DNA of 64,000 nucleotides from Arthrobacter sp. AQ5-05. Lineage in GTDB: Bacteria > Actinomycetota > Actinomycetes > Actinomycetales > Micrococcaceae. Below are positions 4,438-19,101 of the stretch, piece after piece; position 1 is the first letter of the stretch; every line of letters begins with the position of its first letter. The stretch spans positions 186,001 to 250,000 of the forward strand of contig NZ_QMKQ01000002.1 of the NCBI RefSeq assembly GCF_003287975.1, read 5' to 3'. The position numbers and the translations under genes are program-made. The notes under the pieces were generated by a model. The model did no database searches. It was given only the letters and a program-made list of their open reading frames with translations, and was not told where the DNA came from.

Positions 4438-5409
4438 CTAACCCAGGTCGAGCACCAGGCGCTTGCCCTTGCACCGCGACACGCAGATCATCATGGTGTC
4501 CCCCGCCTCGCGTTCCTCGTCCGAGAGCAGGGAATCGCGGTGGTCGATCTCCCCGGAGAGCACGGGGGTTTCGCAGGTGCCGCAGATCCCCTCGCGGCAG
4601 GAATTCAGCGGATTGCGCCCCGCGTCCTCCAGTGCCTGCAGGATGCTGACCCCGACCGGGACCCTGACCTCGGTGCCGTCGGTGCCCTGGACCGTGAACT
4701 CATGGTCGCCCTCGTGCGGCGCCACTGCCGCTTCCGCGGTCGCGGGGTCGGCGGCAAAGCGTTCGAAGTGCAGGCGGGAAGGATCAAGCCAGCCCCCGGC
4801 CAGGGATTCGATCACCTTCAGCAGCGGTCCGGGGCCACAGGTGTACACATGGAAATCCGCGCCCGGATCGGCGAGCAATTCCGCCAGCGGATAGAAGCCG
4901 CTCTCATCGTCGGCGTGGATGTGCACGTTCTGTCCGTAGCCGGCGAGCTCGTCGAGGAAGGCCATGTTCTTCCGGCTGCGGCCCATGTAGATCAGCCGCC
5001 ACGGCTTGTCCCCGGCGGCGGCGGCCCGCACCATGGGCAGGATCGGGGTGATGCCGATCCCGCCGGCCAGGAACACATGCTCCGCGGCCGGCGCCAGGGC
5101 GAAGTTGTTCTTGGGACCGCGCACCTGGATCTTGGTGCCGGGGCGCAGTTCGTCGTGCACGAAGGCCGAGCCGCCGCGTCCTGCCGGTTCCCGCAGCACC
5201 GCCAGGCGCCAGGAATCCCGCTGCCCGGGATCCGAGCACAGGGAATACTGCCGGATCAGTCCGTTGGGCAGCAGCACGTCCAAGTGGGACCCGGCATCCC
5301 ATTCCGGCAGTTGATGGCCCAGCGGATGGCGCAGTTCCATGGACAGGACGCCGTCGGACTCGTGGGTGATGCGGTGGACTTCGGTTTCAAAGAATTCCAG
5401 GGTCGACAT
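4438..5409 (-). CDS. PDR/VanB-type oxygenase reductase (FMN, NAD, [2Fe-2S])
   Basis: Electron-transfer partner for a Rieske oxygenase, 323 residues. Order of domains: N-terminal flavin-binding barrel (RQYSLCSDPGQ near residue 55), NAD-binding domain (FLAGGIGITPILPM near residue 115), C-terminal plant-type ferredoxin with the cluster motif CREGICGTC and a distal Cys near the end. This order is the phthalate-dioxygenase-reductase / VanB class. Start at 5409 has GAAAGGG upstream; a TTG six codons earlier is possible. It is the last gene of the operon that begins with the Rieske oxygenase at 10747, so the two probably form one enzyme although five genes separate them. Confidence 0.9.
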   Translation of the reverse strand: MSTLEFFETEVHRITHESDGVLSMELRHPLGHQLPEWDAGSHLDVLLPNGLIRQYSLCSDPGQRDSWRLAVLREPAGRGGSAFVHDELRPGTKIQVRGPKNNFALAPAAEHVFLAGGIGITPILPMVRAAAAGDKPWRLIYMGRSRKNMAFLDELAGYGQNVHIHADDESGFYPLAELLADPGADFHVYTCGPGPLLKVIESLAGGWLDPSRLHFERFAADPATAEAAVAPHEGDHEFTVQGTDGTEVRVPVGVSILQALEDAGRNPLNSCREGICGTCETPVLSGEIDHRDSLLSDEEREAGDTMMICVSRCKGKRLVLDLG

Positions 5410-5457
5410 CTGTATGTGCCCTTTCAAGGATGCGTGGATGGATGGTTGATGCGTGTC

Positions 5458-6261
5458 TCAGCGCACCGAGGCCAGGAAGGCGCGGGTGCGTTCGTGCTGC
5501 GGATTGCCGATGACCTCCTTGGCCGGGCCCTGCTCCACGACATGGCCGTCGGCCATGAACACCACCCGGTCCGCAACGTCCCGGGCAAAGTTCATCTCGT
5601 GGGTCACCACGACCATGGTCATGCCGGTGGCCGCCAGGTCCTTCATGACCTTCAGGACCTCTCCCACCAGCTCGGGATCCAGGGCCGAGGTCGGCTCGTC
5701 AAAGAGCATGACCTTCGGGCGCATGCACAGGGCCCGGGCGATGGCCACGCGTTGCTGCTGACCGCCCGAAAGCTGTCGGGGGAAGGACTTGGCCTTGTCG
5801 GCCAGCCCCACCGAATCAAGCAGCTGAAGGGCCCGCGCCGTCGCGGTGGAGCGTTTCTCCTTCAGCACCAGGCGCGGTGCCTCGATGAGGTTCTCCAGCA
5901 CGTTCATGTGCGGGAACAGGTTGAAGTGCTGGAACACCATGCCGATCTCCACCCGGGACCGGCAGATCCGCGCATGTGACTGCTCGTGCAGCTTGGTGCC
6001 CTTGAGGTCGTAGCCCATCACCGACCCGTCCACCCACATGCGCCCGCCGTCGATGGTCTCGAGGTGGTTGATGCAGCGCAGCAGCGTCGATTTGCCCGAC
6101 CCGGAGGGGCCGATCAGGCACACCACCTCCCCGCGCCCGACCTGCAGGTCGATGCCCTTGAGGACCTCCAGGCGGCCGTAGTTCTTGCGGATCGCATTGG
6201 CCATGATCATCGGTTCCAGCGCCTTGGCGGTGGTGGTTGCCTCCATGATGGTTGCACTCAT
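5458..6261 (-). CDS. Polar amino-acid ABC transporter ATPase (GlnQ/HisP type)
   Basis: ATP-binding subunit of 267 residues energising uptake by the adjacent permease. Walker A is GPSGSGKST, the Q-loop is [12 protein letters not shown], the signature is LSGGQQQR and Walker B is [12 protein letters not shown]. The H-loop reads VVTHEM. The [13 protein letters not shown] sequence is typical of the polar amino-acid subfamily. The ATG at 6261 overlaps the permease stop by 4 bp (ATGA), showing translational coupling. The gene ends 48 bp before the reductase. Membrane-associated in the cytoplasm. Confidence 0.95.
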
Positions 6262-7193
6262 TTCTTGGCTCCCTTCGCGCTCAACGGGTCATGGACCCGC
6301 ACGAAGCGTTTGAGTTGTTGCCACGGGGTCGGCGGCAGGCTGCGCTGCCCGCCCTTGGCGTAGTGTCGCTCCAGGTAGAACTGCCCCACGCCCAGGATCG
6401 AGGTCACCACGATGTACCAGATGCTGGCCACCATCAACAGCGGGATCGTCTCGAAGTTCCGGGCGTAGATGATCTGCGCGGAGTACAGCAGTTCGGGCAC
6501 CGAGATGACCGAGACCAGTGCGGTGGTCTTGAGCATGCCGATGGTCTCGTTGCCCGTGGGCGGGATGATCACCCGCATGGCCTGGGGCAGGATGACCCTG
6601 CGCATGGTCTGCAGCCTGTTGATGCCCAGCGCCCCGGCCGCCTCGGACTGGCCGTGCTCCACCGACAGGATGCCGGCGCGCACGATCTCGGACATGTAGG
6701 CCGCCTGGTTCAGGCCCAGCCCCAGGATCGCGGCGGTCAGCGGCGTGATGATCGCATTTGCGTCCAGGTCCACCCCCGGGATCCCGAGGGTGATCGAAGG
6801 GTAGAGCGCCGCCAGATTGTACCAGAACAGCAGCTGGACCAGCACCGGAGTGCCGCGGAAAAAGCTGATGTAGGCGAAGGAGGCGGTGCGCACCACCGGG
6901 TTCGCCGAGATCCGCATCACGGCCAGCACCACTCCCAGGACGATGCCGATCACCATGCAGATGGCGGTCAGCTCCAGGGTGATGGCGATGCCGCGCACGA
7001 TCGAGACGTCGCGGATGTACATCCCGACGGTTGCCCACCCGAAGTTCGGGTTGGAAACCACCGAGCGCAGCAGCAGCAGCCCGATGAACACGATGACCGC
7101 GGCCGAGATCCAGCGCCCGGGGTGCCGGGCCTTGACGATGCTGAAATCGTCTGCCGCGGCCGCGGTCTTGTAACGTTCGGTAGCAATGCTCAT
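6258..7193 (-). CDS. Polar amino-acid ABC transporter permease (HisM/GlnP type)
   Basis: Membrane permease of 311 residues with an extended cytosolic N-terminus (about 30 residues) and about six hydrophobic segments. The EAA loop [22 protein letters not shown], which docks the ATPase, is seen near residue 205. The family [13 protein letters not shown] motif lies near residue 115. Only one permease gene is present, so it probably works as a homodimer. Starts 16 bp after the binding-protein gene; ends in a 4-bp overlap with the ATPase gene. Confidence 0.95.
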
Positions 7194-7209
7194 GGTGTGG
7201 GTATCACTT

Positions 7210-8142
7210 CTACTTCAACACGACGTCGGCGGGGGTGATCGCCACGGTCGAGGGCAGCTTCCACTTGGAATTCATCTCCAGGTAGACCGGGGATTCAAGG
7301 ACCGCGGCCGTGGCGGCCTGGATGGCAGGGATCAGCTCGCTGTTCTTGGCCAGCGCGGCGGCGGTCAGCTCGGGCTCGAAATCAGGGCCCTCGGCGAGTT
7401 CGAACTTCCCGCCGGCCAATTCGCCCTGGTAGGCCAGGGACACCGAGTCGGCCATGACACCTTGCACGCGCCCGGAGGTCAGTGCCAGGTTCGCATCGTT
7501 CTGCGTGGGGAAGAACTGCATGTCGATGGCGGGGTTCCCGGCCTCGGTGCAGGTCTTGGAGAAGGCCGGCAGGATATCCAGGGACTGGATGGAGCCCTTC
7601 TGCGCGGCGATCTTCTTGCCACACAGGCGCTCCGGGTCCACCCCGAGCTTTTCCGGGTTCCCCGGCGCCACGGCGATTCCGGTGCCGCCCTGCAGGTTGG
7701 GAACGAAGTCCACTGCCTTGCGGCGCTCGTCGGTGACGGTGAAGGTGGACATCCCCATGTCGTACTTGCCCGACTGCAGTCCCGGCAGGATGGTGTCGAA
7801 GGTGGCCGGCACGTGCTCGACGCTAAGGCCCAGAACCGCGCCGATTGCGTCGCCCATGTCCACGTCCCAGCCGATCATGGTCTTGTTGTCGGTGTCGTAG
7901 AACTCGAAAGGCGGGTAGGTGGGGTCCGAGGCGATGCTCAGCACGCCCTTGTCGCGGAAGGCCGCCGGCAGCAGTGCGCGGGCTTCTTCGTTGACGCCCA
8001 GGGCAGCCGCGGAGGCGGAACCGGCAGCCGGGGCGGCGCTGCCCTGGGTCGGTTCGGCCTGGGTGACGGTGGTGCATCCGGTTGCGGCAAGGGCAAGGAG
8101 CATGCCGCCGGCCAAGATACCTGCGGTGCGGTGCGAGATCAT
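7210..8142 (-). CDS. ABC transporter substrate-binding lipoprotein (family 3)
   Basis: Extracytoplasmic solute receptor, 310 residues. The N-terminus is a lipoprotein signal with lipobox LAATGC, so Cys near residue 23 is lipidated. The mature part shows the type-3 solute-binding pattern: SIASDPTYPPFEF near residue 70, GWDVDMGDAIGAVLG, and a mid-domain FTVTDERRKAVDF block. These features fit polar amino acids and similar zwitterions. AAGGAC lies 8 nt before the ATG. Its position after a deacylase gene suggests the ligand is an acylated or otherwise modified amino-acid-like compound (inference). Confidence 0.93.
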   Translation of the reverse strand: MISHRTAGILAGGMLLALAATGCTTVTQAEPTQGSAAPAAGSASAAALGVNEEARALLPAAFRDKGVLSIASDPTYPPFEFYDTDNKTMIGWDVDMGDAIGAVLGLSVEHVPATFDTILPGLQSGKYDMGMSTFTVTDERRKAVDFVPNLQGGTGIAVAPGNPEKLGVDPERLCGKKIAAQKGSIQSLDILPAFSKTCTEAGNPAIDMQFFPTQNDANLALTSGRVQGVMADSVSLAYQGELAGGKFELAEGPDFEPELTAAALAKNSELIPAIQAATAAVLESPVYLEMNSKWKLPSTVAITPADVVLK

Positions 8143-8211
8143 GTTCTGTCCTTTTGTGGTGGTGTCCGGGCCGGAATCGGCACCGGATTTTCGGTGTGGT
8201 GGAACGGGATA

Positions 8212-9255
8212 CTACGGATCAAGGGGGTCAAGGGCCCGGGCGATGTGCAGCATGTGGCTGCCCGGGGACACCACAGTTGGTCGACGCAAGATTGCGACAA
8301 CGCCATCGGTGCGTGCAGTGAACAGCCTCGGGGGCCGGTCCAGCTCGTCGATGAAGTGCACGCGCGCCACCGGCTGCCCGGCGGCCACCGTGTCTCCCAG
8401 GTCAACCAGCGGCTCGAACAGCCCGGCCACCGAGGAGGTCACCGGCGATTCCGGAACCAGGCCCAGCCACTGCGGGTCGGCCACGGGTGCGGCGCCGAGG
8501 TCGTCCTTCAGGATCCCCAAGCCGCCGAGCAATGCATCCATACCGCGGCGCAGGCACCCCAGTGCCTGACGGTCCACGGTCCCGGCACCGGAGATCTCGG
8601 TGGAGATCGTGGGGATCCCCGCCAGATCCCCGGCGCTGGACAACGATCCGGGCTCGAGCATCGGGCCCACCACCATCACGTAGGGAAGCCCGAGAAGCCG
8701 GGCGGCGCGCAGCTTCGCACCCCATAATCCTTCGTCGGGGCCGCGATAGATGAACGCGCACGGCAGGTACGTCGAGTTCGACCCTCCGGAATGCATATCG
8801 ATCACGAAATCGGCGCGCGGCAGCAGCTCCCCGGCAATCAGCGCGGCCACCTGTTCGGTTGGCCCGCCGTCTGCGCGGCCCGGATAGCTGCGGTTGAGGT
8901 TTCCCGCATCGATGGGCGAGACCCGCGCGGCACCGCGCACGGCCGGGGAGTTGGCCGCAGGTACCACGATCACGGTGCCCGTCAGCCGCTCCGGGTCCAG
9001 CTCGCGGATCAGTTCGTGGGCCAGGACCTGGCCCTCGTACTCGTCCCCGTGGGTGCCGGCGACCAGCAGGGCCACCGGTCCGGGTCCTGAGGAAATCACG
9101 GCCACGGGCACCGGGATGACCGACCCGTCGTGCACGTTGTCCGAATGCACCACGTGTCCGTAGCCAAGTTGCTTCCCTGGGGCGGAAAAGTCGATCCCGC
9201 TGAAGGCCGAACCGACCGGGGCGAGCTGGCGCGCCGGCAGCGTCCCGAGTTTCAC
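8212..9255 (-). CDS. Succinylglutamate desuccinylase / aspartoacylase family (M14) deacylase
   Basis: Zinc amidohydrolase of 347 residues in the AstE/AspA/DoeB group, which removes acyl groups from N-acyl amino acids. Zinc ligands are visible as H69 and E72 (GTHGDEYEG) and H155 (VIDMHSGGSN). NRSYPG near 121-126 is the family's carboxylate-binding segment, and the catalytic Glu is probably in STEISGAG. The C-terminal ~80 residues form the extra beta domain typical of DoeB-like members. Start is the GTG at 9255, which overlaps the preceding stop by 4 bp (GTGA); a longer frame exists but only by overlap with that gene. The exact substrate is unknown. Confidence 0.88.
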   Translation of the reverse strand: MKLGTLPARQLAPVGSAFSGIDFSAPGKQLGYGHVVHSDNVHDGSVIPVPVAVISSGPGPVALLVAGTHGDEYEGQVLAHELIRELDPERLTGTVIVVPAANSPAVRGAARVSPIDAGNLNRSYPGRADGGPTEQVAALIAGELLPRADFVIDMHSGGSNSTYLPCAFIYRGPDEGLWGAKLRAARLLGLPYVMVVGPMLEPGSLSSAGDLAGIPTISTEISGAGTVDRQALGCLRRGMDALLGGLGILKDDLGAAPVADPQWLGLVPESPVTSSVAGLFEPLVDLGDTVAAGQPVARVHFIDELDRPPRLFTARTDGVVAILRRPTVVSPGSHMLHIARALDPLDP

Positions 9256-9701
9256 GGCACCCAGCGCAGGGCCGGGGCACGGCGCGGCGCCAGCATTGTC
9301 ACCGAGACCCGGGCCTCGGGTGCGGTCAGCGAGAGGCGCAGCGACTCGTCGTCCTCGCCCTCCACGATGAACACGTCGCCGGGATTCAGCCAGCGCTCCC
9401 AGGGACCGTCGACCGCGGCGATGAGCACCTGGCCGTGCAGCGAGGTCACCACCATCTGGTGCCCTGCGGCTCGCTCGACGATGCCGGTGTAGCCGTCGGC
9501 GTACACGCGGGTCTGCACCCCGATGTAGTCGGGGTCCGCCTCGACATGGACCTCGGGTCCGGCCTGTTCCTGGATCAGGCGGGCGGTCCAGCGCCACGGG
9601 TCCCCGCGTTCGTCGGTGTCCGGGCAGGCGGCCAGCGTGCGCTGCCCGGGTTCCGCATCCCAGTAGTCGTCAAGCGAGTCCTTGCGTACCAGCAACCACA
9701 T
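9252..9701 (-). CDS. Small cupin-like protein of unknown function
   Basis: 149 residues, about half beta-strand by eye, with a cupin-like pattern in the second half: GHQMVVTSLHGQVLIAAV, then NPGDVFIVEGEDD. It lacks a recognisable signal peptide, so it is probably cytosolic. I do not recognise a characterised family. Its place between the oxygenase gene (5-bp gap) and the deacylase gene (4-bp stop-start overlap) ties it to the same pathway, perhaps as an isomerase, small dioxygenase or ligand-binding protein. Metal ligands cannot be assigned with confidence. Confidence 0.7.
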   Translation of the reverse strand: MWLLVRKDSLDDYWDAEPGQRTLAACPDTDERGDPWRWTARLIQEQAGPEVHVEADPDYIGVQTRVYADGYTGIVERAAGHQMVVTSLHGQVLIAAVDGPWERWLNPGDVFIVEGEDDESLRLSLTAPEARVSVTMLAPRRAPALRWVP

Positions 9702-9706
9702 GGCGT

Positions 9707-10747
9707 CTAGGCCCTTGCGCCGGCGGCGGAGCGGTCCGCGACGGCGGCCTGCTCGCGCTTGATGAGCGTGGAAAGGATGCGCCGGGCCTTGGCCACGCCG
9801 CCGTCCTGGGCGATGAGCACGTCGAACTCGCCGGCCGGGCGGGACTGCATGCCGATTTCCTGGGCTTCCAGGGCCTCGGCATCCTCGCGCAGCACCGTCT
9901 CCAGGCCCACGCGCAGGTCCTCGGTGGCCTGTGCGTCGTCGACGGCGAAGTTGCGGCTGAAGGCGTAGTAGTACCAGGAGTTGTGCGCGTCGATCGGTGT
10001 GATGCCGTTGAGCACCTTGATCAGGTAGCCCTCGGCGCGGGGCTTGCCTTCCCCGGTGATCCCGGAGTGCAGCACGTGCAGGTTCGGCACAAAGAACTCG
10101 GTGCAGTGGAAGCGGTCGAACAGGCCGCGGGCATTCATGGTGTCGGCGTACAGCGGGGGGGCCTCGACCGAGGGCATCAGCCTATCGACGCTGACCACCG
10201 ATCCCTCGACTTCAACGGTGATGCCGTGCTCGTAGATGTAGTCGTCGCCCACGGTGGTCTTGTGCAGGAAGGACTCGTGGGTCAGGTCCAGCAGGTTGTC
10301 GTGGATCAGTTCGGCACGGCAGGCGAACGGCACCGAGTGGGTCACGGTGGCCCATTCCGGGTCGTTCATCCAGTGGGTGTCGGGTACGTCCGCGGGGTCG
10401 GCCGCCGCCGCGTCGCCCATCCAAGCCCAGATCCAGCCGTCCTTTTCCACCAGCGGGTATTTGCGGACCTTGGCGCGTTCGGGGATGGTGCTCTGCGCGG
10501 GGACCTTGGTGCACATGCCGTCCTCGCCATAGGTGAAGCCGTGGTAGCCGCACTCGATGGAGTCCCCGATGGTGCGGCCCGCCGAGAGCGGGAAGGCACG
10601 GTGGGCGCAGCGGTCGGCCAGGGCCACGGGCGTACCGTTCTGGGTGCGAAAGAGCACGAGTGGCTGCTCGCAGATCACGCGCTTGACCGGTTTGCGGTCG
10701 ACCTCGTTGCTCCAGGCCGCCACGTACCAGGTGTTCAAGACATACAT
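9707..10747 (-). CDS. Rieske non-heme iron oxygenase, VanA/DdmC-like
   Basis: Oxygenase component of 346 residues for O/N-demethylation or hydroxylation. Rieske cluster ligands are C47, H49 (CAHR) and C66, H69 (CGYHG). The mononuclear iron site is marked by D154, H157 and H162 (NLLDLTHESFLH), where the Asp is the inter-subunit electron bridge. Length and the MYVLNTWYVAAWSNE start are those of the vanillate O-demethylase (VanA) / dicamba demethylase type. AAAGGA lies 7-8 nt before the ATG at 10747; a longer open frame runs back through the divergent promoter region and is not used. First gene of the operon; its reductase is the last. Confidence 0.92.
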   Translation of the reverse strand: MYVLNTWYVAAWSNEVDRKPVKRVICEQPLVLFRTQNGTPVALADRCAHRAFPLSAGRTIGDSIECGYHGFTYGEDGMCTKVPAQSTIPERAKVRKYPLVEKDGWIWAWMGDAAAADPADVPDTHWMNDPEWATVTHSVPFACRAELIHDNLLDLTHESFLHKTTVGDDYIYEHGITVEVEGSVVSVDRLMPSVEAPPLYADTMNARGLFDRFHCTEFFVPNLHVLHSGITGEGKPRAEGYLIKVLNGITPIDAHNSWYYYAFSRNFAVDDAQATEDLRVGLETVLREDAEALEAQEIGMQSRPAGEFDVLIAQDGGVAKARRILSTLIKREQAAVADRSAAGARA

Positions 10748-10782
10748 GTTTTTTCCTTTTCCGGAAGGTGGAGAGTGCTTGA

Positions 10783-10810
10783 CTGTATTCACCGTATACA
10801 GTGGATACAG
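10783..10810. promoter_or_regulatory. Candidate FCD-GntR operator between oxygenase and regulator genes
   Basis: CTGTATTC (10783-10790) and GGATACAG (10803-10810) form a near-perfect inverted repeat, with a GTATAC palindrome (10794-10799) in the centre. This gives three TGTAT/ATACA half-sites. FCD-type GntR regulators commonly bind sites centred on GTATAC or GT-N-AC. It lies 36 bp upstream of the oxygenase ATG and about 105 bp upstream of the regulator. Assignment is inference. Confidence 0.55.
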
Positions 10811-10916
10811 ATGGGTCAAGGGTTTTTTGTGACCCATGCCACCAGTGCCGCGACGCGGAGTGAAAACCGCACGATAGAATGCTGGGAACCGCGACGAAAC
10901 ATTTTCAGGGAGACGC

Positions 10917-11579
10917 ATGGCTACGGGAGTCCACGACGCAAGGCCACTGGCGGTGCGCGTCCATGACCAGATCGCCTCCGAAATCGTCAGCGGAGCGCTG
11001 AAGCCGGGAGCCTCCCTGGTCCAGGAGCAGGTTGCCGCCCAATTCGGGGTGTCGCGTACCCCGGTGCGCGACGCATTGGCCCAGATCGCCATGGAGGGGC
11101 TGGCCACGCTGGTGCCCGGGAGCGGGTACGTGGTCAACGACCTCACCGCCCAGGATGTGCACAACGTCTTTGAGGTGCGTTACCACCTGGAGCAGCTGGC
11201 GATGGCACAGGCCATCGGCAGGCACTCCCCCGCGCAACTGGTGCGGCTGCGGGCACTTATCGACGAATTCGAGACGGTGGAACCCACCGACGCGGAGGAA
11301 CAGTTCCGCCTCGGCAAGGAATTCCACCTGAGGCTCATGGATCCCTGTCCCAACCAGTACCTGCGCGAGACACTGGAAAGCATCTGGGGACACCCGATCC
11401 AGCGGAGGATCACCCGCGCCTACCAACTGGGGCCCGAACACCAGGCCTCCATTGCGCGGGCGCACCGCGAGATCCTCGAGGCGTTGCCCGCCGGCGACCT
11501 TCAAACGATCATCCGGGTCCTGGGCTACTGCCACGACTCCGGCGACATCGACCCGCAGGCCCTTCCCACCCGCGGGTGA
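10917..11579 (+). CDS. GntR-family regulator, FCD (FadR) subfamily
   Basis: Transcription factor of 220 residues. The N-terminal winged helix (residues ~12-75) includes the recognition block VAAQFGVSRTPVRDALAQIAMEG. The C-terminal all-helical FCD ligand domain (~85-205) contains the metal-type residues of the family (for example H in GKEFHLRLMD). Start at 10917 has GGGAGA 5 nt upstream. Divergent from the Rieske operon, so probably its ligand-responsive repressor. It converges on the PucR gene with 19 bp between stops. Confidence 0.93.
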   Translation: MATGVHDARPLAVRVHDQIASEIVSGALKPGASLVQEQVAAQFGVSRTPVRDALAQIAMEGLATLVPGSGYVVNDLTAQDVHNVFEVRYHLEQLAMAQAIGRHSPAQLVRLRALIDEFETVEPTDAEEQFRLGKEFHLRLMDPCPNQYLRETLESIWGHPIQRRITRAYQLGPEHQASIARAHREILEALPAGDLQTIIRVLGYCHDSGDIDPQALPTRG

Positions 11580-11598: not shown

Positions 11599-13161
11599 CT
11601 ACGCCCCGGTGGCTCGGGCCCGGATCCGCAGGATCTCTGTCTGGTAGGCGAGGTAAAGGTTCGCGATCAGGCCCGGCTCGCCCAGGCTCCCGCCGAGGAT
11701 CTCGCCCACTTTCTTCACGCGGTAGCGAACCGTGTTCGGGTGGACGTAGAGCCAGGCCGCGACCTTGGCAACATCCTGGTCCAGCGCCAAGTACCCCTGG
11801 ATCGTGTCTACCAGTTCCTTTTCCTGCCGCAGCGGCTGCACAAACCGGGTCAATCGCTTGCGGTCGGCCGGCCCCTTCAGCCTGGCCAGCAACCAACTCG
11901 CGGGATCGACCTGCTCCATCCGGACCATGCATCCGCTCCCGCCCGCATCACCGGATGGCCGCCGCCGGGCGATGCCCGCGGCCAGCTCGGCCTCCTGGAA
12001 CTGCTCCGGGACCTGCGCCAATGAACCGAAGGGCTCGCTCAGCCCAATCGCCATACCCGGTGCAGCGGCTTCCAGCCATTGCCCGCCAACCCGGGACTCC
12101 GGAAGCAGTGCGTGGAACCCCGGCGGCACCTCGGGCGTTTTCCCGTTCTCGGCAAATAGCAGCGGAACATCCAACCGTCCGGCGGAATCCACCAAGGTCT
12201 CAACCCTGGCCGGGGTCAACAACGCTTCACCCAGCGTGGTGGCCACGACCACGCGGACCTGCTCGAAGGCCTTGAACCCCAAGGGCTTGAGCAACTCCCA
12301 GTAGCGCAGTTCCCGGGAGACCTCGATCCCGTCCTGCAGGCTGGTGAGCAGCCTGGCATTTTCATGGCGTTGGCGCGAGGTGTCGAAATGGCTGATGCCC
12401 TCGATGGCTCCGAGCATGCGTTGGGTGGTTTCCAGCAGGACATCGCCCAGGTCATCGAGCAGCGTCCCCTGCCGCGTGGCAATCGCCAGGTGATAGCCGC
12501 GGCCGCGCAGCACCATCGAACGGTACATCACTTCCCAGCGGCCGATCGAGATCCTGTCCAGTGGCGAGGACCCGTTGCCGATGGCCGAGAGGATCAAATT
12601 CGTGGGACCCTCCCCCGTGGATTCGACAATTGCCCCGGAATCCTCGTAGAGCACCGCGGTTCCCCGGCAAGCCGCGCCCACCCGGCCAATAAGCGACTTC
12701 ACCGGAGTGTCCGAGGAGATACTTTCCAGCAGGTCGTTGGTCAGCCACAGCATGCGCTTGAGGCCGTATTCCTTGGGTATCGACGCATTTCGGTTGACGT
12801 GGTTTTCGATGTGCCGGAAGGGGACATCCGGGGCGACCGCCACCAGCGGCAATCCCAGTTCCAAGCAGTTGTCGCGCAACGAATCGGGAATCGAGGGGAA
12901 ATACAGGCCGATGCCGAAGAACAGGGCGGCGATATCCGCCCGGATCAGTGCCTCCACCAGCTCGCGCGCCGCGGCTTCCGGCCGCGCTTCATTCAGGAAC
13001 CGCATACCGGTGGTCAGCATGATGTTTCCCGATTCAAACCAGCGGGCAGGATCGTGGATCTCGGAACTATGGGCACCGGTGACCCGCGGATCAAGGTCGC
13101 CGGCGACCACAAGCTCCAATCCCAGGGTCTTGTCCTTCACCAGGTCGCTTAAGTGCAACAC
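11599..13161 (-). CDS. PucR-family transcriptional regulator
   Basis: 520 residues. The N-terminal PucR ligand domain (about residues 8-125) has the hallmark run DPRVTGAHSSEIHDPARWF followed by NIMLTTGM. The C-terminal HTH_30 domain has the typical LDQDVAKVAAWLYVHPNTVRYR near residue 470. PucR proteins activate purine, hydantoin and related nitrogen catabolism. The GTG start at 13161 has AAGGGA 8 nt upstream and places the PucR domain at the N-terminus; an upstream ATG frame is less likely. It diverges from hyuA, so regulation of hyuAB and the NCS1 permease is the obvious reading. Confidence 0.92.
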   Translation of the reverse strand: MLHLSDLVKDKTLGLELVVAGDLDPRVTGAHSSEIHDPARWFESGNIMLTTGMRFLNEARPEAAARELVEALIRADIAALFFGIGLYFPSIPDSLRDNCLELGLPLVAVAPDVPFRHIENHVNRNASIPKEYGLKRMLWLTNDLLESISSDTPVKSLIGRVGAACRGTAVLYEDSGAIVESTGEGPTNLILSAIGNGSSPLDRISIGRWEVMYRSMVLRGRGYHLAIATRQGTLLDDLGDVLLETTQRMLGAIEGISHFDTSRQRHENARLLTSLQDGIEVSRELRYWELLKPLGFKAFEQVRVVVATTLGEALLTPARVETLVDSAGRLDVPLLFAENGKTPEVPPGFHALLPESRVGGQWLEAAAPGMAIGLSEPFGSLAQVPEQFQEAELAAGIARRRPSGDAGGSGCMVRMEQVDPASWLLARLKGPADRKRLTRFVQPLRQEKELVDTIQGYLALDQDVAKVAAWLYVHPNTVRYRVKKVGEILGGSLGEPGLIANLYLAYQTEILRIRARATGA

Positions 13162-13362
13162 CGCGATTCCCTTCGCTCGATCCGCCGCTCGATCTACTCT
13201 TCGCATTCGAGGCCGTGGGACCCCGGATCATCCCGAGCAGTACGGGATTTTGTAGAAAATACAATGATAGGCCCGAGACCTTTGAAATCCGCCAATGACA
13301 GAGATGCGCGTCACACTGCATGGTTGTGGAAAGCGAAAACCCGAACCAGCAAGGAGCGCAGA

Positions 13363-15417
13363 ATGGCCAATTTACGAGTTGCCGTGGACGTGGGAGGCAC
13401 GTTCACCGACGTCTGCATTTTCGACGAAGAAACCCAGGAAATGCGGGTCACCAAGGTTCCCTCCACGCCCCATGACCCCATGCTGGCCGTCATGGGCGGC
13501 GTGGAAAGGGCCAACATCAATCTTGCAGATGTCTCTTTGTTCTCACACGGAACGACGGTGGCAACAAACGCCCTCATCACTCGCAAGTTCCCGGCTTCGG
13601 CCATGATCACCACCCGTGGTTTCCGCGATGTCATCGAAATCCGCGACGGAACGAAGGACGATCTTTGGGATGCCTACAACGACGTCTCGGGCCCCTACAT
13701 CCGACGCCGCGACCGTTTCGAGGTCACTGAGCGAATCGATTTCTCCGGCAAGGTCGTCACCCCCTTGGACGAGGTCGAGGCCCGGCGGCTCGCCGCATTG
13801 CTGCGCAAGCGCGGAACCACCACGATTGCCGTGTGCTTCATTAACTCCTACGCCAACCCCGCCAACGAGATCAGGATGCGCGAGATCCTCCAGGAGGAAC
13901 TTCCCGAGGCCACCGTTTCGGCATCCGCCGAGATCCTGCCCGAGATCTTCGAGCACGACCGCTTCAACACCGCGGTCTCCAATGCCGTGCTGGCCCCGCT
14001 AGTGACCGGATACGTGGACCGCCTAGCCACACAGCTCAAGGACGGCGGCTATTCCGGGGACCTGCTGCTGCTTCACTCCGGCGGCGGATCGATGACCCCG
14101 CGCATGGTCAAGCGCTATCCTGTGAGGCTCGCGGCCTCCGGCATTGCAGCCGGCGCCATCGCCGCCAAGCATGTCGCCCAGCAATGCGGCTTCGAAAACG
14201 CTGTCGGACTGGACATGGGCGGCACCTCCACCGACATCTGCCTGGTCTCGGACGGCGAATTGCGCATCACCAAGGAATGGCACGTCGAATACGGCCACCC
14301 CATCGTCTTCCCCTCCATCGAGGTCATGACCATCGGTGCCGGCGGCGGCTCCCTGGCCCACATCGACATCGCCGGATCCCTGCGCAACGGCCCCCAGTCC
14401 GCGGGCGCGGCACCGGGCCCGGCCTGCTACAACACCGGCGGTGAAGAGCCCACCAACTGCGACGCCAACCTGGCCTTGAACCGCTTGGGAACCTCCCTGG
14501 CCGGCGGTGCCAAGTCCCTCGACCGCGACCTGTCCTTGGCGGCCATCAAGCGGGTCATCTCCGAACCGCTGGGTATGGAAGAGGCCGAGGCCGCCCATGC
14601 CATCCTGCAGGTCGCCAACGCCAACATGGCCGATGCGGTTCGCCTGATCTCGATCCGCCGGGGCTACGACCCGCGCGATTTCGCGCTCATCGCCTTTGGC
14701 GGGGCCGGGGCGCTGCACGGCGCCGAGGTGGCCCGCGAGCTGAACATCCCCACCGTCGTGGTCCCGGCGAATCCCGGAGTTACCTCCGCGCTGGGCTGCC
14801 TGCTGGTCGACATCCGCCACGACCTCTCGGCCATGTTCACGGGCCTGGCCTCCGAGAGCGATCCGGCAGAAATCGAAGCCCGGTTCGCGACCCTGGAAAG
14901 GGAAGCTTCCTCGCGCCTACGGCACGAGGGAGTCAGCGACGAGAACGCCGTGCTGCAACGCGAGATCTCCATGCGCTATGCGGGACAGTGGCGTTCGCTC
15001 TCGGTGCCCATCGGCTCCGGACGCGGCGCCCTGGACACCGCCATCGAGACCTTCCACCAGGAACACGAGCGGGAGTTCGCCTTCCGCCAGGACGACCAGC
15101 CGGTCGAGATCTACCAGCTGCTGCTCAGCGCCGTCGGCAAGACCCCGAAGCCTGCCTTCATTCCGGCCCCCCAGCTCAACGCCGACCCTGGCCCCCCGGT
15201 TTCCACCCGCGAGGTCTACTTCGGCGACGCCGGATGGCTGTCCACCCCTGTCTACGACAGGGCCCAGCTTCCCGCCGGCGCCACGTTCCCCGGGCCGGCC
15301 ATCATCGACCAGCTCGATTCCACCAGCGTCGTTCCGCCCCGCACGACCGCCGAGATCGACGGCTGGGGCAACATTCGCATCCACCTCCACGATCTTTCCT
15401 CAAGCAAGGAGTCCTAG
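13363..15417 (+). CDS. hyuA: Hydantoinase/oxoprolinase subunit A (HyuA-like)
   Basis: 684 residues, the ATP-using subunit of the hydantoinase/5-oxoprolinase family. Two ASKHA-type phosphate loops are visible: VDVGGTFTDVCIFDE at the N-terminus and GLDMGGTSTDICLVSDGE near residue 285. The glycine-rich IAFGGAGALHG near residue 445 completes the fold. The enzyme opens cyclic amides such as N-methylhydantoin, 5-oxoproline or related lactams with ATP. AAGGAG 7 nt before the ATG at 13363 fixes the start; the open frame extends 70 codons further back with no family match. Next gene starts 2 bp after the stop. Confidence 0.93.
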   Translation: MANLRVAVDVGGTFTDVCIFDEETQEMRVTKVPSTPHDPMLAVMGGVERANINLADVSLFSHGTTVATNALITRKFPASAMITTRGFRDVIEIRDGTKDDLWDAYNDVSGPYIRRRDRFEVTERIDFSGKVVTPLDEVEARRLAALLRKRGTTTIAVCFINSYANPANEIRMREILQEELPEATVSASAEILPEIFEHDRFNTAVSNAVLAPLVTGYVDRLATQLKDGGYSGDLLLLHSGGGSMTPRMVKRYPVRLAASGIAAGAIAAKHVAQQCGFENAVGLDMGGTSTDICLVSDGELRITKEWHVEYGHPIVFPSIEVMTIGAGGGSLAHIDIAGSLRNGPQSAGAAPGPACYNTGGEEPTNCDANLALNRLGTSLAGGAKSLDRDLSLAAIKRVISEPLGMEEAEAAHAILQVANANMADAVRLISIRRGYDPRDFALIAFGGAGALHGAEVARELNIPTVVVPANPGVTSALGCLLVDIRHDLSAMFTGLASESDPAEIEARFATLEREASSRLRHEGVSDENAVLQREISMRYAGQWRSLSVPIGSGRGALDTAIETFHQEHEREFAFRQDDQPVEIYQLLLSAVGKTPKPAFIPAPQLNADPGPPVSTREVYFGDAGWLSTPVYDRAQLPAGATFPGPAIIDQLDSTSVVPPRTTAEIDGWGNIRIHLHDLSSSKES

Positions 15418-15419
15418 TC

Positions 15420-17417
15420 ATGACCGATACACTCGTTGCCCCAGACACCCTGGCCAACACGGCGAGGCACGCATCCCTGGACCCCGTCACCTTCGAGGTG
15501 CTCAAGAACGCGTTCGCGACCTCGGTCGACCTGATGAGCGAACAGATCCTGCGCACCTGCTACTCCTTCGTCATCTACTCCCGCGACTTCTCCTCGGCAT
15601 TGTGCGATGCCCAGGGCAACACCGTGATGCAGGGATCTGGCGACATCGCGGTGCACGTGGGCACACTGCATTTCCAGTGCAAAGCCGTGATCGAAGAGTT
15701 CGGCACCGACATCCACCCGGGCGATGTCTTCGCGATCAACGACCCCTACCGCGGCGGCACCCACTTCAACGACGTGTCCTTCATCCGGCCGATCTTCGCC
15801 GACGGCGAGGTCATCGCCTTCGCCCAGAACAAGGGCCACTGGGCCGACATCGGCGGCAACGTCCCCGGTTCCTTTGACGTCAACGCCAAGGAGCACTTCG
15901 GCGAGGGCCTGCGCATCACCCCGGTGCGCATCTGGTCCAAGGGCGTTTTCCTGCACGACGTCGCCCAACTGCTGGTGTCCAACACCCGCGCGCCGCGCCA
16001 GGCCATGGGGGACCTCCATGCCCAGTCCGAGGCCACCGCCGTCTGCGAGCGCGAAGTGCACCGCCTGGTCGGCAAGTACACCAAGGGCACCGTGCTGGCG
16101 GCCATGCAGGAAACCCAGGACTACGTGGAACGGACGGTCCTGCGACAGCTGGAGTCCCTGCCCCGCGGCGAATGGGAAACCACCGACTACATCGACGTGG
16201 ACCCGGGCAAGGGCGAGGGCCTGGTACCGATCAAGATCAAGCTCACCCTCGACGGGCACGGAATCCACTACGACCTGACCGGGTCGGCTCCCGCCGTGGC
16301 CACCTTCCTGAATTCCGGATACGGAACCACCCACTCGGCCATCTACGCCGGCACCAAGACCTTCTTCCCGGAAGTCCCGCTGAACTCCGGCTTCTACGCT
16401 GCGGTCCGTGCGGAGATCGGCCCGGAAGGCACCGTGGTCAACGCCGGATGGCCCTACGCCGTCACCGGGTTCTGTTCCGGCCCGTACGAAAAAATCATGA
16501 ACGGTATCTTCGAACTGTGGAGCCAGATCATGCCCGAACGCGCCATGGCGTGCGCATTCAACCTCGAATACCTGCTGGTCGGCGGCAAGGACGCCCGGAC
16601 CCCGACCAACGAGTATTTCATGTGGTACGACTGGATGGCCGGCGGCTGGGGCGGACGCGCCAGCAAGGACGGCTCATCGGCCACTGCACCGGTCTTCGGT
16701 CCCGGCCTGGCCGTGCAGCCGATCGAGGGCCAGGAACGACTCTCCCCCGTGCTGACCACCCGGCACGAGATCGCCATGGACTCCGCCGGTCCGGGCCGCT
16801 ACCGCGGCGGACTGGGGATCGAAAAGGGAGGGGTGCTCACCGACGCCTTCGACACCGTCATGAGCTACTGCTGTGACCGGGCCCGCTCCATCACCTGGGG
16901 CATCGAGGGAGGCCTGCCCTCCATCCCGCACGGGGTCTGGCTGAACAAGGGGACGGACGGGGAACGCTACCTCGGCTCGAACTTCTCCTCCGTGCCGGTG
17001 CAGTCCGGCGACACCTTTACCCGACCCTCCGCCGGCGGCGGTGGCTTCGGCGACCCGCTGATGCGCACCGCCGCCGAGGTCAGGGAGGACGTCATCGACG
17101 GCTACGTCTCGATCGACCGCGCCGCCAAGGACTACGGCGTGGTGATTCGCGAGATCGACGCGGAACTCGACGATTTCGAGATCGACGAGGCCGCCACCAC
17201 GGAGTTGCGCGAGCAGATCCGTGCCGCGCGGCACGGCTGGCTCACCGAGGACCCGCACGCGGTCGCCGAAAGCTACCGCAACGGCACCACGGACATGCTC
17301 GATGTCATCCGGCGCCACGGCGTGATCCTGGACTGGGGCACCGGCGAACTGTATGAAAACACCACCGCGGAGTACCGGCAGTTGATGAAGCGCCGCTCAT
17401 CGGCCCACTGGCACTAG
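15420..17417 (+). CDS. hyuB: Hydantoinase/oxoprolinase subunit B (HyuB-like)
   Basis: 665 residues, partner of HyuA. Family motifs include DPVTFEVLKNAFATSVDLM at the N-terminus, AINDPYRGGTHFNDV near residue 105, NKGHWADIGG near residue 140 and the late FTRPSAGGGGFGDP near residue 535. The ATG at 15420 follows AAGGAG; the longer open frame starting earlier lies inside hyuA in another frame and is a shadow. Cytosolic enzyme complex. Substrate not decided by sequence; the NCS1 permease downstream supports a hydantoin-like or N-heterocyclic compound. Confidence 0.93.
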   Translation: MTDTLVAPDTLANTARHASLDPVTFEVLKNAFATSVDLMSEQILRTCYSFVIYSRDFSSALCDAQGNTVMQGSGDIAVHVGTLHFQCKAVIEEFGTDIHPGDVFAINDPYRGGTHFNDVSFIRPIFADGEVIAFAQNKGHWADIGGNVPGSFDVNAKEHFGEGLRITPVRIWSKGVFLHDVAQLLVSNTRAPRQAMGDLHAQSEATAVCEREVHRLVGKYTKGTVLAAMQETQDYVERTVLRQLESLPRGEWETTDYIDVDPGKGEGLVPIKIKLTLDGHGIHYDLTGSAPAVATFLNSGYGTTHSAIYAGTKTFFPEVPLNSGFYAAVRAEIGPEGTVVNAGWPYAVTGFCSGPYEKIMNGIFELWSQIMPERAMACAFNLEYLLVGGKDARTPTNEYFMWYDWMAGGWGGRASKDGSSATAPVFGPGLAVQPIEGQERLSPVLTTRHEIAMDSAGPGRYRGGLGIEKGGVLTDAFDTVMSYCCDRARSITWGIEGGLPSIPHGVWLNKGTDGERYLGSNFSSVPVQSGDTFTRPSAGGGGFGDPLMRTAAEVREDVIDGYVSIDRAAKDYGVVIREIDAELDDFEIDEAATTELREQIRAARHGWLTEDPHAVAESYRNGTTDMLDVIRRHGVILDWGTGELYENTTAEYRQLMKRRSSAHWH

Positions 17418-17751
17418 CCGCACCCACCGCCGCCAGGCGGAGGGGGCAGCGCAAGACCGGCCGGTTTCCTCCCCCTTCCGCCCGGCCGCACCGCCTCCTT
17501 GCGGGGGCTCGAAGGATTCCGAGTGGTTATCCCCCTGCCGAGGCATGCGGAGCCCCGCTCGGTGAAGACGGCGCGGGAATCCGCTGCGGGTCCCCGCACC
17601 AGCACGCAGCACTTGTCCGGCTTCACACACAGGGCACCGGCTGATCCCCAAGGGATGGCCTCGGCGCCATTCCTTGTCACACACCCCTGGCACCAAGCAC
17701 CTGCGGGATCGTCCCCGTTGCCCTGCCGTGCCCTTCTGAAGGAGAAGTCCC
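17418..17751 (+). other. 334-bp leader between hyuB and the NCS1 permease gene
   Basis: No gene seen. It carries a small GC hairpin just after hyuB and a cleaner hairpin at 17650-17675: 10-bp arms 17650-17659 and 17666-17675 (one G-T pair) with loop CTCGGC, about 75 nt before the permease GTG. There is no T-run. It may hold a separate promoter or a structured 5' leader. I could not match it to a known riboswitch. Confidence 0.4.
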
Positions 17752-19101
17752 GTGTCAACCCCGTCAACGGCCGAACAACCGGCCACAGAAAACAGCAAAA
17801 TGAGTGCCGGCTCACTGTCCATGGCCTGGTACGGCCTGGTCTCGGCCATGTTCTTCATCTACATCGGCGCCTCGCTGGCCCAGGCCTACGGCACCATCGA
17901 CACCCTTATCGGGTTGGCAATCACCATCGTCCTCTATGGCGCGATCAACCGGATCCTGGCCGGCTACGCACTGAAGCATTCCCTGACCGTCGCCCAGTTC
18001 TCCCGCACGCTGCTCGGCAGCAAGGGCGCCATGTTGGCCACCCTGGTCTTCGCCGCCACCGCCATCTACTATGCGGTCTTCGAGGGCGCCATCCTCGGCT
18101 ACGCCTTCCAGGCGCAGTTCGGAGGCCCCATCGAGCTCTGGTACGCACTGGTGGTGCTCTACACGATCCCGCTGATAGCCGGCGGCATCCAACGCTGGCT
18201 GGACAAGATCAACGGCTGGCTGCTGCCGATCTACTGGGGCGGCCTGCTCGTCGCCGTCATCTGGGCTTCCATCGCCCATCCCGATGGCGGTGCCTGGCTC
18301 ACCCACTCCCCCGGAGCTCTGCCGTTCACCGCCGGCGGGCCGGGCTGGCTGGCCACCTGCGCCGCCTTCATGGGCGTATGGATCCTGATGATGTACACGA
18401 TGGACTTCGCCGCCCTGGGCCGCGCCAAGGACGTGAAGTTCCACCAGCGGTACACCTTCGGCTGGCTTTTCTACATCCTGGCCTTCGGTGTCAACTCGCT
18501 GATCGGCATCTACCTGATCTTCACCATTCCCGGCGCCGAGGCCACGGAGACCGGTGTCGCCGGCGCCTTGGTCCAGCTCATGGGCCCACTGGGCCTGCTG
18601 GTGATCTTCGTGTCGCAGACCCGGATCAACACCGCGAACTACGCACTGGGCATTGCCAACCTGCGCGAATTCGCCCAGCGCGCCCTGCACTTGCGCCTGC
18701 CCTCGCTGGCCTGGGTCGGGATCGGAGCCATCATCATCTACCTGCTGATGCTGCTGCCGGTGGTCAAGTACCTGTTGCTGGCCCTGTCATGGCAGGGGGC
18801 ATTGGTCACCGGCTGGGTGGCGATCGCACTGGTGCACATCTTCGTCCACGAGCGGCGCGGCAGCATCGTGCCGGACGGTTCACTTCCGGACTCCGCCTTT
18901 CCCTCGCTGAACCGGGCCGGGGTCGCGGCCTGGGTGCTCTCGGCAGCGGCCGGGATCACGCTGGTCCAATCCGGCAGCCCCTGGGCCTCGAACATCGGTT
19001 CGCTGGCCACCCCGGTCCTGGCGGCACTGATCTACGGTGCGTTGATCGGTCGCTCGCGCTCCGAAACCGAGCTTCCCGCCGCGAGCCTGGCCGGCCGATA
19101 G
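17752..19101 (+). CDS. NCS1-family nucleobase/hydantoin-type permease
   Basis: Inner-membrane transporter of 449 residues with about 12 hydrophobic segments, nucleobase:cation symporter-1 family (Mhp1, CodB, PucI types). The early segment FIYIGASLAQAYGTIDTLIG and the mid segment GVWILMMYTMDFAALGRA are in the regions that build the substrate and Na+ sites in this family. The GTG start has GGAG 9 nt upstream. Following hyuAB and PucR it most likely imports the compound that HyuAB opens. A strong hairpin follows the stop. Confidence 0.85.
   Translation: MSTPSTAEQPATENSKMSAGSLSMAWYGLVSAMFFIYIGASLAQAYGTIDTLIGLAITIVLYGAINRILAGYALKHSLTVAQFSRTLLGSKGAMLATLVFAATAIYYAVFEGAILGYAFQAQFGGPIELWYALVVLYTIPLIAGGIQRWLDKINGWLLPIYWGGLLVAVIWASIAHPDGGAWLTHSPGALPFTAGGPGWLATCAAFMGVWILMMYTMDFAALGRAKDVKFHQRYTFGWLFYILAFGVNSLIGIYLIFTIPGAEATETGVAGALVQLMGPLGLLVIFVSQTRINTANYALGIANLREFAQRALHLRLPSLAWVGIGAIIIYLLMLLPVVKYLLLALSWQGALVTGWVAIALVHIFVHERRGSIVPDGSLPDSAFPSLNRAGVAAWVLSAAAGITLVQSGSPWASNIGSLATPVLAALIYGALIGRSRSETELPAASLAGR

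Follow-up and report, generated by a model that had tools for sequence, protein, structure and literature searches.

A conserved Rieske oxygenase operon with a HutD-like cupin in Arthrobacter and its possible role in the use of N-methylated histidine

In the genome of Arthrobacter sp. AQ5-05 we analysed a stretch of 64,000 nucleotides (the window; NCBI RefSeq assembly GCF_003287975.1, contig NZ_QMKQ01000002.1, positions 186,001 to 250,000 of the forward strand), in which positions 4438-11579 hold seven co-oriented genes on the minus strand and a divergent GntR/FCD regulator gene. Transcription runs from 10747 down to 4438 in the order Rieske oxygenase (RO, used here for the gene of the window, its product and, where other genomes are meant, the orthologues), cupin, M14 deacylase, solute-binding protein (SBP), permease, ATPase and reductase. 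Counted downstream from RO, the intergenic distances are 5 bp, a 4-bp overlap, 69 bp, 16 bp, a 4-bp overlap and 48 bp, the last shrinking to 30 bp if the TTG at 5427 is the start of the reductase. A first-pass annotation had described this layout, with its short gaps and overlaps and its divergent FCD-GntR gene, correctly: all eight positions were borne out, and coordinates and Pfam families agree. A PHROGs search found nothing. The parts of the locus are as follows.

4438-5409, minus strand: PDR-type reductase of 323 aa with FAD/NAD domains and a C-terminal 2Fe-2S ferredoxin (Pfam Fer2, NAD_binding_1, FAD_binding_6), the proposed electron donor of RO
5458-6261, minus strand: ATPase of an ABC importer of the polar amino-acid type, 267 aa (Pfam ABC_tran)
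6258-7193, minus strand: permease of the ABC importer, 311 aa (Pfam BPD_transp_1; NCBIfam HEQRo_perm_3TM above cut-off)
7210-8142, minus strand: lipoprotein-like SBP, 310 aa (Pfam SBP_bac_3)
8212-9255, minus strand: DoeB-like M14 deacylase of N-acyl amino acids, 347 aa, GTG start, accessory (Pfam AstE_AspA_cat)
9252-9701, minus strand: HutD-fold cupin, 149 aa, without a Pfam match
9707-10747, minus strand: Rieske non-haem iron monooxygenase of the VanA/DdmC type, 346 aa (Pfam Rieske and VanA_C), a proposed N-demethylase of a histidine derivative
10790-10803, no strand: operator-like palindrome CACCGTATACAGTG in the divergent promoter, with a conserved core
10917-11579, plus strand: divergent GntR/FCD regulator, 220 aa (Pfam GntR and FCD)

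RO matches the Pfam families Rieske with 75.9 bits (cut-off 20.3) and VanA_C with 134.9 bits (cut-off 23.5). The Rieske 2Fe-2S residues C47, H49, C66 and H69 are invariant in an alignment of 24 RO sequences (that of L020, a stretch with a stop, was left out; L-numbers denote loci and G-numbers genomes of relatives), and so are D154, H157, H162 and D289. The first three of the latter group align with DdmC and are taken by us to be the mononuclear iron ligands and the bridging Asp, D289 presumably being a ligand as well. RO shares about 30% identity with VanAB and DdmC, and its two closest solved structures are O-demethylases. It differs from these systems in its partners, namely a HutD-like cupin, an amino-acid importer and a hut context, and in forming a tight family of at least 67% identity, with paralogues at 50-55% and the next matches of our scan at 34%. 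The methylxanthine N-demethylases NdmA and NdmB are 22-25% identical to RO and have other partner genes and presumably another substrate.

RO relatives were sought in one genome per species across 84,980 species with two short peptide patterns from close orthologues. The scan returned 52 loci, 45 of them at 67% identity or more and the remaining seven at 34% or less; since the patterns are short and drawn from close orthologues, relatives at 50-55% were missed, and such paralogues do exist. By deposited names, 42 of the 45 loci belong to Actinomycetota (two as metagenome-assembled genomes (MAGs) of Bifidobacterium breve) and the other three to uncultured bacteria. The nearest relatives (92-94%) come from Paeniglutamicibacter species, an Arthrobacter, a Glutamicibacter and a Micrococcaceae MAG. 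Two loci, L060 and L061, lie in one genome, and identical coordinates mark G171/G311, G006/G326, G262/G327 and G282/G332 as single genomes handled twice. On plasmids, 33 records contained relatives of RO, all below 60% identity (at most 41% among the matches listed), and no orthologue.

Partner genes were counted by similarity within each locus. Among 46 loci (the window and the 45, many of them cut by contig ends), a cupin was found in 36, the GntR gene in 35, the SBP in 34, permease, ATPase and reductase in 31 each and M14 in 21. For the 36 loci with at least 6 kb downstream the numbers are 32 for the cupin, 29 for the reductase, 28 for the SBP, 28 for GntR, 27 for the permease, 27 for the ATPase and 18 for M14. 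Fragments account for three of these matches, namely the L063 SBP, the L064 M14 and the L090 reductase, the last represented by its ferredoxin part only. Gene order varies. The Micrococcaceae have RO-cupin-M14-importer-reductase, Streptomyces has RO-M14-importer-cupin-reductase with the cupin adjoining the reductase, and in Brevibacterium permense the genes form two divergent arms, one being M14-SBP-permease-ATPase. Because these genes surround RO orthologues in other genera as well, their clustering exceeds chance, and the operon is real and conserved. Judged by the same counts, M14 is optional, whereas RO, cupin, reductase, importer and regulator form the core. The annotation's idea of a single catabolic operon with a VanA-type oxygenase, a PDR-type reductase at the far end, a polar amino-acid importer and a divergent regulator is thus supported, and its own check, the conservation of the set in other genomes, came out in its favour from Micrococcaceae to Streptomyces and Brevibacterium.

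The spacer between RO and the regulator gene contains ACTGTAT-N7-ATACAGT, which CACCGTATACAGTG at 10790-10803 overlaps. Of 33 spacers that separate RO from a divergent GntR gene, 26 contain the core TGTATAC or GTATACA; the spacers come from related species, and the 26 occurrences are not independent. In 1000 first-order Markov simulations the corresponding number averaged 0.185 and never exceeded 2. The seven spacers without it are those of L060, L061, L069, L071 and L073-L075. Nine Streptomyces loci hold CACTGTATACRGTG in full and two Brevibacterium loci all but its last base. With up to one mismatch allowed, CACTGTATACRGTG has a single site in the whole genome (4,647,352 bases), and this site lies at the promoter described here. 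As the palindrome occurs only once, the GntR/FCD regulator looks dedicated to the operon, which would then be regulated separately. This bears on the notion of a merely historical cluster, in which one promoter drives RO, importer and deacylase although each serves a substrate of its own. In its favour, several RO loci lack M14 and the importer, and the arms are rearranged; against it speak the co-occurrence from Micrococcaceae to Streptomyces and Brevibacterium and the conserved operator with its single site in the genome, and we regard it as highly improbable.

An SBP_bac_3 protein, a HEQRo-type permease, an ATPase and residues for an alpha-amino acid are found together, as in a polar amino-acid ABC importer. 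The SBPs of the RO loci keep the Arg for the carboxylate in 33 of 33 and the Asp for the amino group in 32 of 32 sequences covering the respective position (excluding the L063 fragment on account of its length), roles that we assume from HisJ and GlnH. Since the residues that bind carboxylate and amino group are both retained, the SBPs fit a free alpha-amino acid as ligand. The best NCBIfam matches of the ATPase (TcyN, EhuA and GlnQ) are all under their cut-offs. Separately, part of the NCBIfam model of the serine/threonine kinase StpK7, MSMEG_1200 (positions 300-594) matches the SBP (7210-8142) with 163 bits (cut-off 900), which suggests that mycobacteria have a kinase carrying a related SBP domain.

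The M14 protein matches AstE_AspA_cat with 127.3 bits (cut-off 25), and its motifs HGDEYEG, NLNRS, HSGG and TE, to which we assign the usual active-site roles of M14 enzymes, align with DoeB (6twl). It shares with DoeB and the AspA-AstE deacylases both the domain and the active-site motifs. DoeB (TIGR02994) is also its sole NCBIfam match, at 216.3 bits under a curated cut-off of 402.7, and its partner genes are unlike those of ectoine use. Together with an ATPase score of 324.6 bits against an EhuA cut-off of 345.4, this match led us to consider an ectoine-type compatible-solute pathway with an Ehu-like importer and DoeB. Every score falls under its cut-off, however: besides EhuA and DoeB, those of EhuB (36.8; 190.9), EhuC (153.6; 196.95) and EhuD (132.6; 205.2). 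No ectoine hydrolase was matched among the operon proteins scanned, the genome not having been searched for one, and a Rieske step is not known to be part of the ectoine pathway. On the cut-offs we disfavour ectoine and consider it scarcely credible.

A first pointer to histidine comes from the cupin, whose best fold match is HutD and which has a HutD-like profile. HutD is here represented by 1yll (PA5104), which we take to be HutD, and by 5fcc and 5v00 of P. fluorescens. These proteins have about 185-195 aa, compared with 149 aa in the cupin, and share 10-11% identity with it. HutD itself was sought in 27 of the 45 RO genomes. A second pointer is genomic. L079 and L080 represent two MAG species whose names indicate lake samples; in both, RO and an IclR gene are transcribed divergently from hutU-hutI-hutH, which all exceed their NCBIfam cut-offs. 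In the window genome hutU lies about 32 kb from the RO gene, and a canonical Hut set is present (HutU 888 bits, cut-off 375; HutH 607.6, cut-off 539.15; HutI 320.8, cut-off 298.15). Across genomes, hutU exceeds its cut-off in 40 of the 45 with RO, compared with 164 of 297 genomes of the window's order (Fisher p 3e-6, with 7 RO genomes removed from the background, with kinship and genome size uncorrected and with many RO genomes coming from other orders). A second Fisher test, in which RO genomes above 2.5 Mb were set against a background of any size, is disregarded as unfair.

A third pointer is a sister operon on contig C10 of the window genome. Its genes encode a paralogue of the reductase (68% identity, the nearest in the genome, the next being 37%), an amino-acid ABC importer and a paralogue of histidine ammonia-lyase (HAL2); with them goes a divergent P450, for which CYP199 enzymes are the best matches among solved structures (L044). 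HAL2 was sought in 39 genomes, that is, in 38 of the 45 RO genomes and in G128, the genomes of L052, L073, L075, L078, L081, L083 and L086 being omitted, and was present in 12. It is separate from canonical HutH, with at least 63% identity within HAL2 and at most 44% between the two. The Glu of the QEDH motif is kept in 15 of 15 HAL2 rows (12 genomes, three rows repeated), and the position of the RSHA motif holds Asn or Asp in all 15 as against His in nine canonical HutH rows. In the Pseudomonas enzyme these residues face the imidazole. Because the imidazole-facing His is replaced, HAL2 should act on histidine with an altered ring.

The surroundings of HAL2 are of two kinds. In nine of 12 loci (L044:8965-17778, L150-L156 and L042) a P450 adjoins, accompanied by a reductase in eight of the nine and by an importer in four. 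The other three loci, all Arthrobacter-like (L147:8814-16060, L148 and L149, in G308, G305 and G307), have a second HutU (43% to the canonical one), HutI, HutF and M20 in a row. P450 and second HutU set never occurred together in any HAL2 stretch read (about 15-20 kb each), a pattern to be expected if the P450 takes off a group not accepted by canonical HutU. The simplest reading is that a substituent is either removed by the P450 or carried through specialised Hut-like enzymes, and the P450 looks like a demethylase standing in for the dedicated set. Beside the second Hut-like set of L147 there is also a divergent M20D-type amidohydrolase, with 257 bits for DoeB2 (cut-off 550). Two loci bring these elements close to the Rieske family: in L042 HAL2 and a P450 share the locus with a reductase, a HutD-like cupin and an RO paralogue (50%), and in L060 RO has the cupin, the reductase and a P450 encoded on the opposite strand as its neighbours.

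Degradation of N-tau-methylhistidine by bacteria was reportedly the subject of a 2022 study by Beliaeva, Atac and Seebeck. A histidine ammonia-lyase acts on N-tau-methylhistidine according to a passage in a paper that cites this study (PMC11432326). The loci with HAL2, HutU, HutI, HutF and M20 may represent that pathway. As far as that passage goes, bacterial catabolism of a methylhistidine would be common to it and to the RO operon. The latter, however, has neither a lyase nor a Hut-like set of its own and would demethylate oxidatively and rely on canonical Hut.

Taken with the hut adjacency in two species, the HutD-fold cupin and the co-occurrence of hutU, the HAL paralogue of the sister operon provides a histidine context, and we are fairly confident that the substrate of the RO operon is histidine-derived and feeds Hut. 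From the gene set, families, conservation, operator, hut link and HutD fold, all read from sequence, we infer the reactions, the repression, the methyl group and the isomer of the following scheme. The SBP-permease-ATPase importer would take up a free amino acid. The reductase would hand electrons from NAD(P)H to RO, which would hydroxylate an N-methyl group; release of formaldehyde from the hydroxylated group would leave histidine, which would then enter the chromosomal Hut pathway. M14, where present, would cleave N-acyl forms, whether N-acetyl or, as in anserine, beta-alanyl, to yield the amino acid. The HutD-fold cupin may sense or buffer a pathway intermediate, and the GntR/FCD protein would repress the operon through its one dedicated palindrome. 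That the operon imports and demethylates an N-methylated histidine strikes us as a proposition with even chances, and N-methylhistidine as the actual substrate has about as much for it as against it. The N-pi isomer is a doubtful choice, preferred because genomes such as that of the window, G305, G307 and G308 carry both RO and HAL2 clusters and HAL2 is taken to serve N-tau-methylhistidine; the argument is one of non-redundancy, not of turnover.

Several observations weigh against this scheme. A DoeB-like deacylase suits N-acyl substrates, which conflicts with the import of a free amino acid. No characterised orthologue of RO was found, and DdmC acts on a methoxybenzoate. The window cupin does not match the HutD family of Pfam (PF05962, gathering score 25 bits); of four cupin relatives scanned singly, two reached 13.0 and 17.8 bits and two did not match HutD, and a profile search of the PDB yielded two weak matches, the second being HutD (E 0.059). 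Weak by both kinds of sequence search, the link to HutD convinces by fold only. Adjacency to hut is limited to one lineage (two of 45 loci), and RO and hutU share a contig in six of the 45 genomes, those other than L079 and L080 being four close relatives with distances of 27-32 kb. Finally, no hutU was seen in four RO genomes of 1.7-1.9 Mb, and in another of 2.1 Mb it is reduced to a fragment, so that either RO can exist without Hut or these MAGs are incomplete.

The first-pass annotation had proposed that an acylated, quaternary or methoxy-aromatic compound is taken up and degraded. Its core, amino-acid uptake plus oxygenation in a catabolic operon, is supported; the compound classes are weakened by the Arg and Asp of the SBP, by the lack of M14 in 18 of the 36 loci that extend at least 6 kb downstream and by the histidine context. 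A reading unconnected with histidine, in which M14 deacylates and the oxygenase attacks an imported compound of acylated, betaine-like or methoxy-aromatic kind, would account for the DoeB-like M14 and for a VanA/DdmC-type oxygenase closest in structure to two O-demethylases. Against it speak the HutD fold, the hut neighbourhood, the co-occurrence of hutU, the SBP residues and the M14-free loci, and we judge it quite unlikely.

Somewhat closer to the evidence, yet still unlikely, is that RO acts on another histidine-derived compound, such as methylurocanate, imidazole lactate, N-acetylhistidine or an imidazole alkaloid, with another group removed or the ring hydroxylated and the product still feeding Hut. 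All Hut links hold equally for this, and the cluster of a 55% RO paralogue, with its FMN-dependent dehydrogenase, FAD-linked oxidase and SBP Asn, suggests non-amino analogues. The SBPs of the RO loci, on the other hand, keep the amino-binding Asp throughout, and no HAL or HAL2 match was found near an RO orthologue in the 46 loci beyond the canonical hutH of L079 and L080. The paralogue cluster itself (L045:2077-12317; G000 contig C2, 109-119 kb) also comprises a HutD-like cupin, a luciferase-like oxygenase, a divergent importer and an IclR gene. Asn replaces the amino-binding Asp in its SBP, hinting at a hydroxy- or keto-acid analogue as ligand, and with the dehydrogenase and oxidase genes this points to non-amino analogues in that enzyme group.

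More broadly, Actinobacteria may rely on oxidative demethylation as their general way into methylhistidine catabolism. One isomer (probably N-pi) would be handled by a Rieske enzyme and its HutD-like partner, M14 making N-acyl forms such as anserine accessible; the other would fall to a CYP199-like P450 that works alongside a special ammonia-lyase and takes the place of a whole dedicated Hut-like set. We put this forward tentatively, with less than even confidence. Both routes would be undescribed as far as we searched. Among the open-licence PMC papers listed we found no Rieske route to methylhistidines, which is a weak negative, and little is described there on methylhistidine breakdown by bacteria outside the gut. 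A Rieske demethylase operon feeding a standard pathway is of a known kind; its substrate and HutD-like partner appear undescribed in those papers, and we know of no earlier Rieske enzyme for the imidazole ring of an amino acid. Methylhistidines are released on the decay of muscle proteins and anserine. The demethylation scheme would give a substrate to an orthologous Rieske family now recognisable only as VanA-type and a role to a HutD-like protein, and Rieske enzyme, P450 and duplicated Hut set would be three alternative solutions to one chemical problem. With one operator, an importer and an oxygenase, the conserved operon lends itself easily to a direct test.

Some RO loci carry further genes of interest. 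A second, different Rieske oxygenase (28-34% to RO) lies inside the operon together with the importer in L073:4751-5265, L074:13179-14330 and L075:3567-4022. In L084 (11552-12640) a Rieske oxygenase closest to GbcA (196.5 bits, under cut-off) is located 3' of RO and a HutD-like gene, and an agmatinase (above cut-off) and an amidase lie upstream (L084:5315-7725), L085 being similar by eye. Adjoining the operon in the window (11599-19101) are a PucR regulator, caprolactamase A and B homologues (under cut-off) and a membrane protein without a Pfam match, permease-like by eye; all of these together are found only in L046-L048 among the 45 loci. Close homologues of caprolactamase A and B (74-79%) also adjoin HAL2 and P450 in L153, which makes a tie of such genes to hydantoin by-products of histidine breakdown possible.

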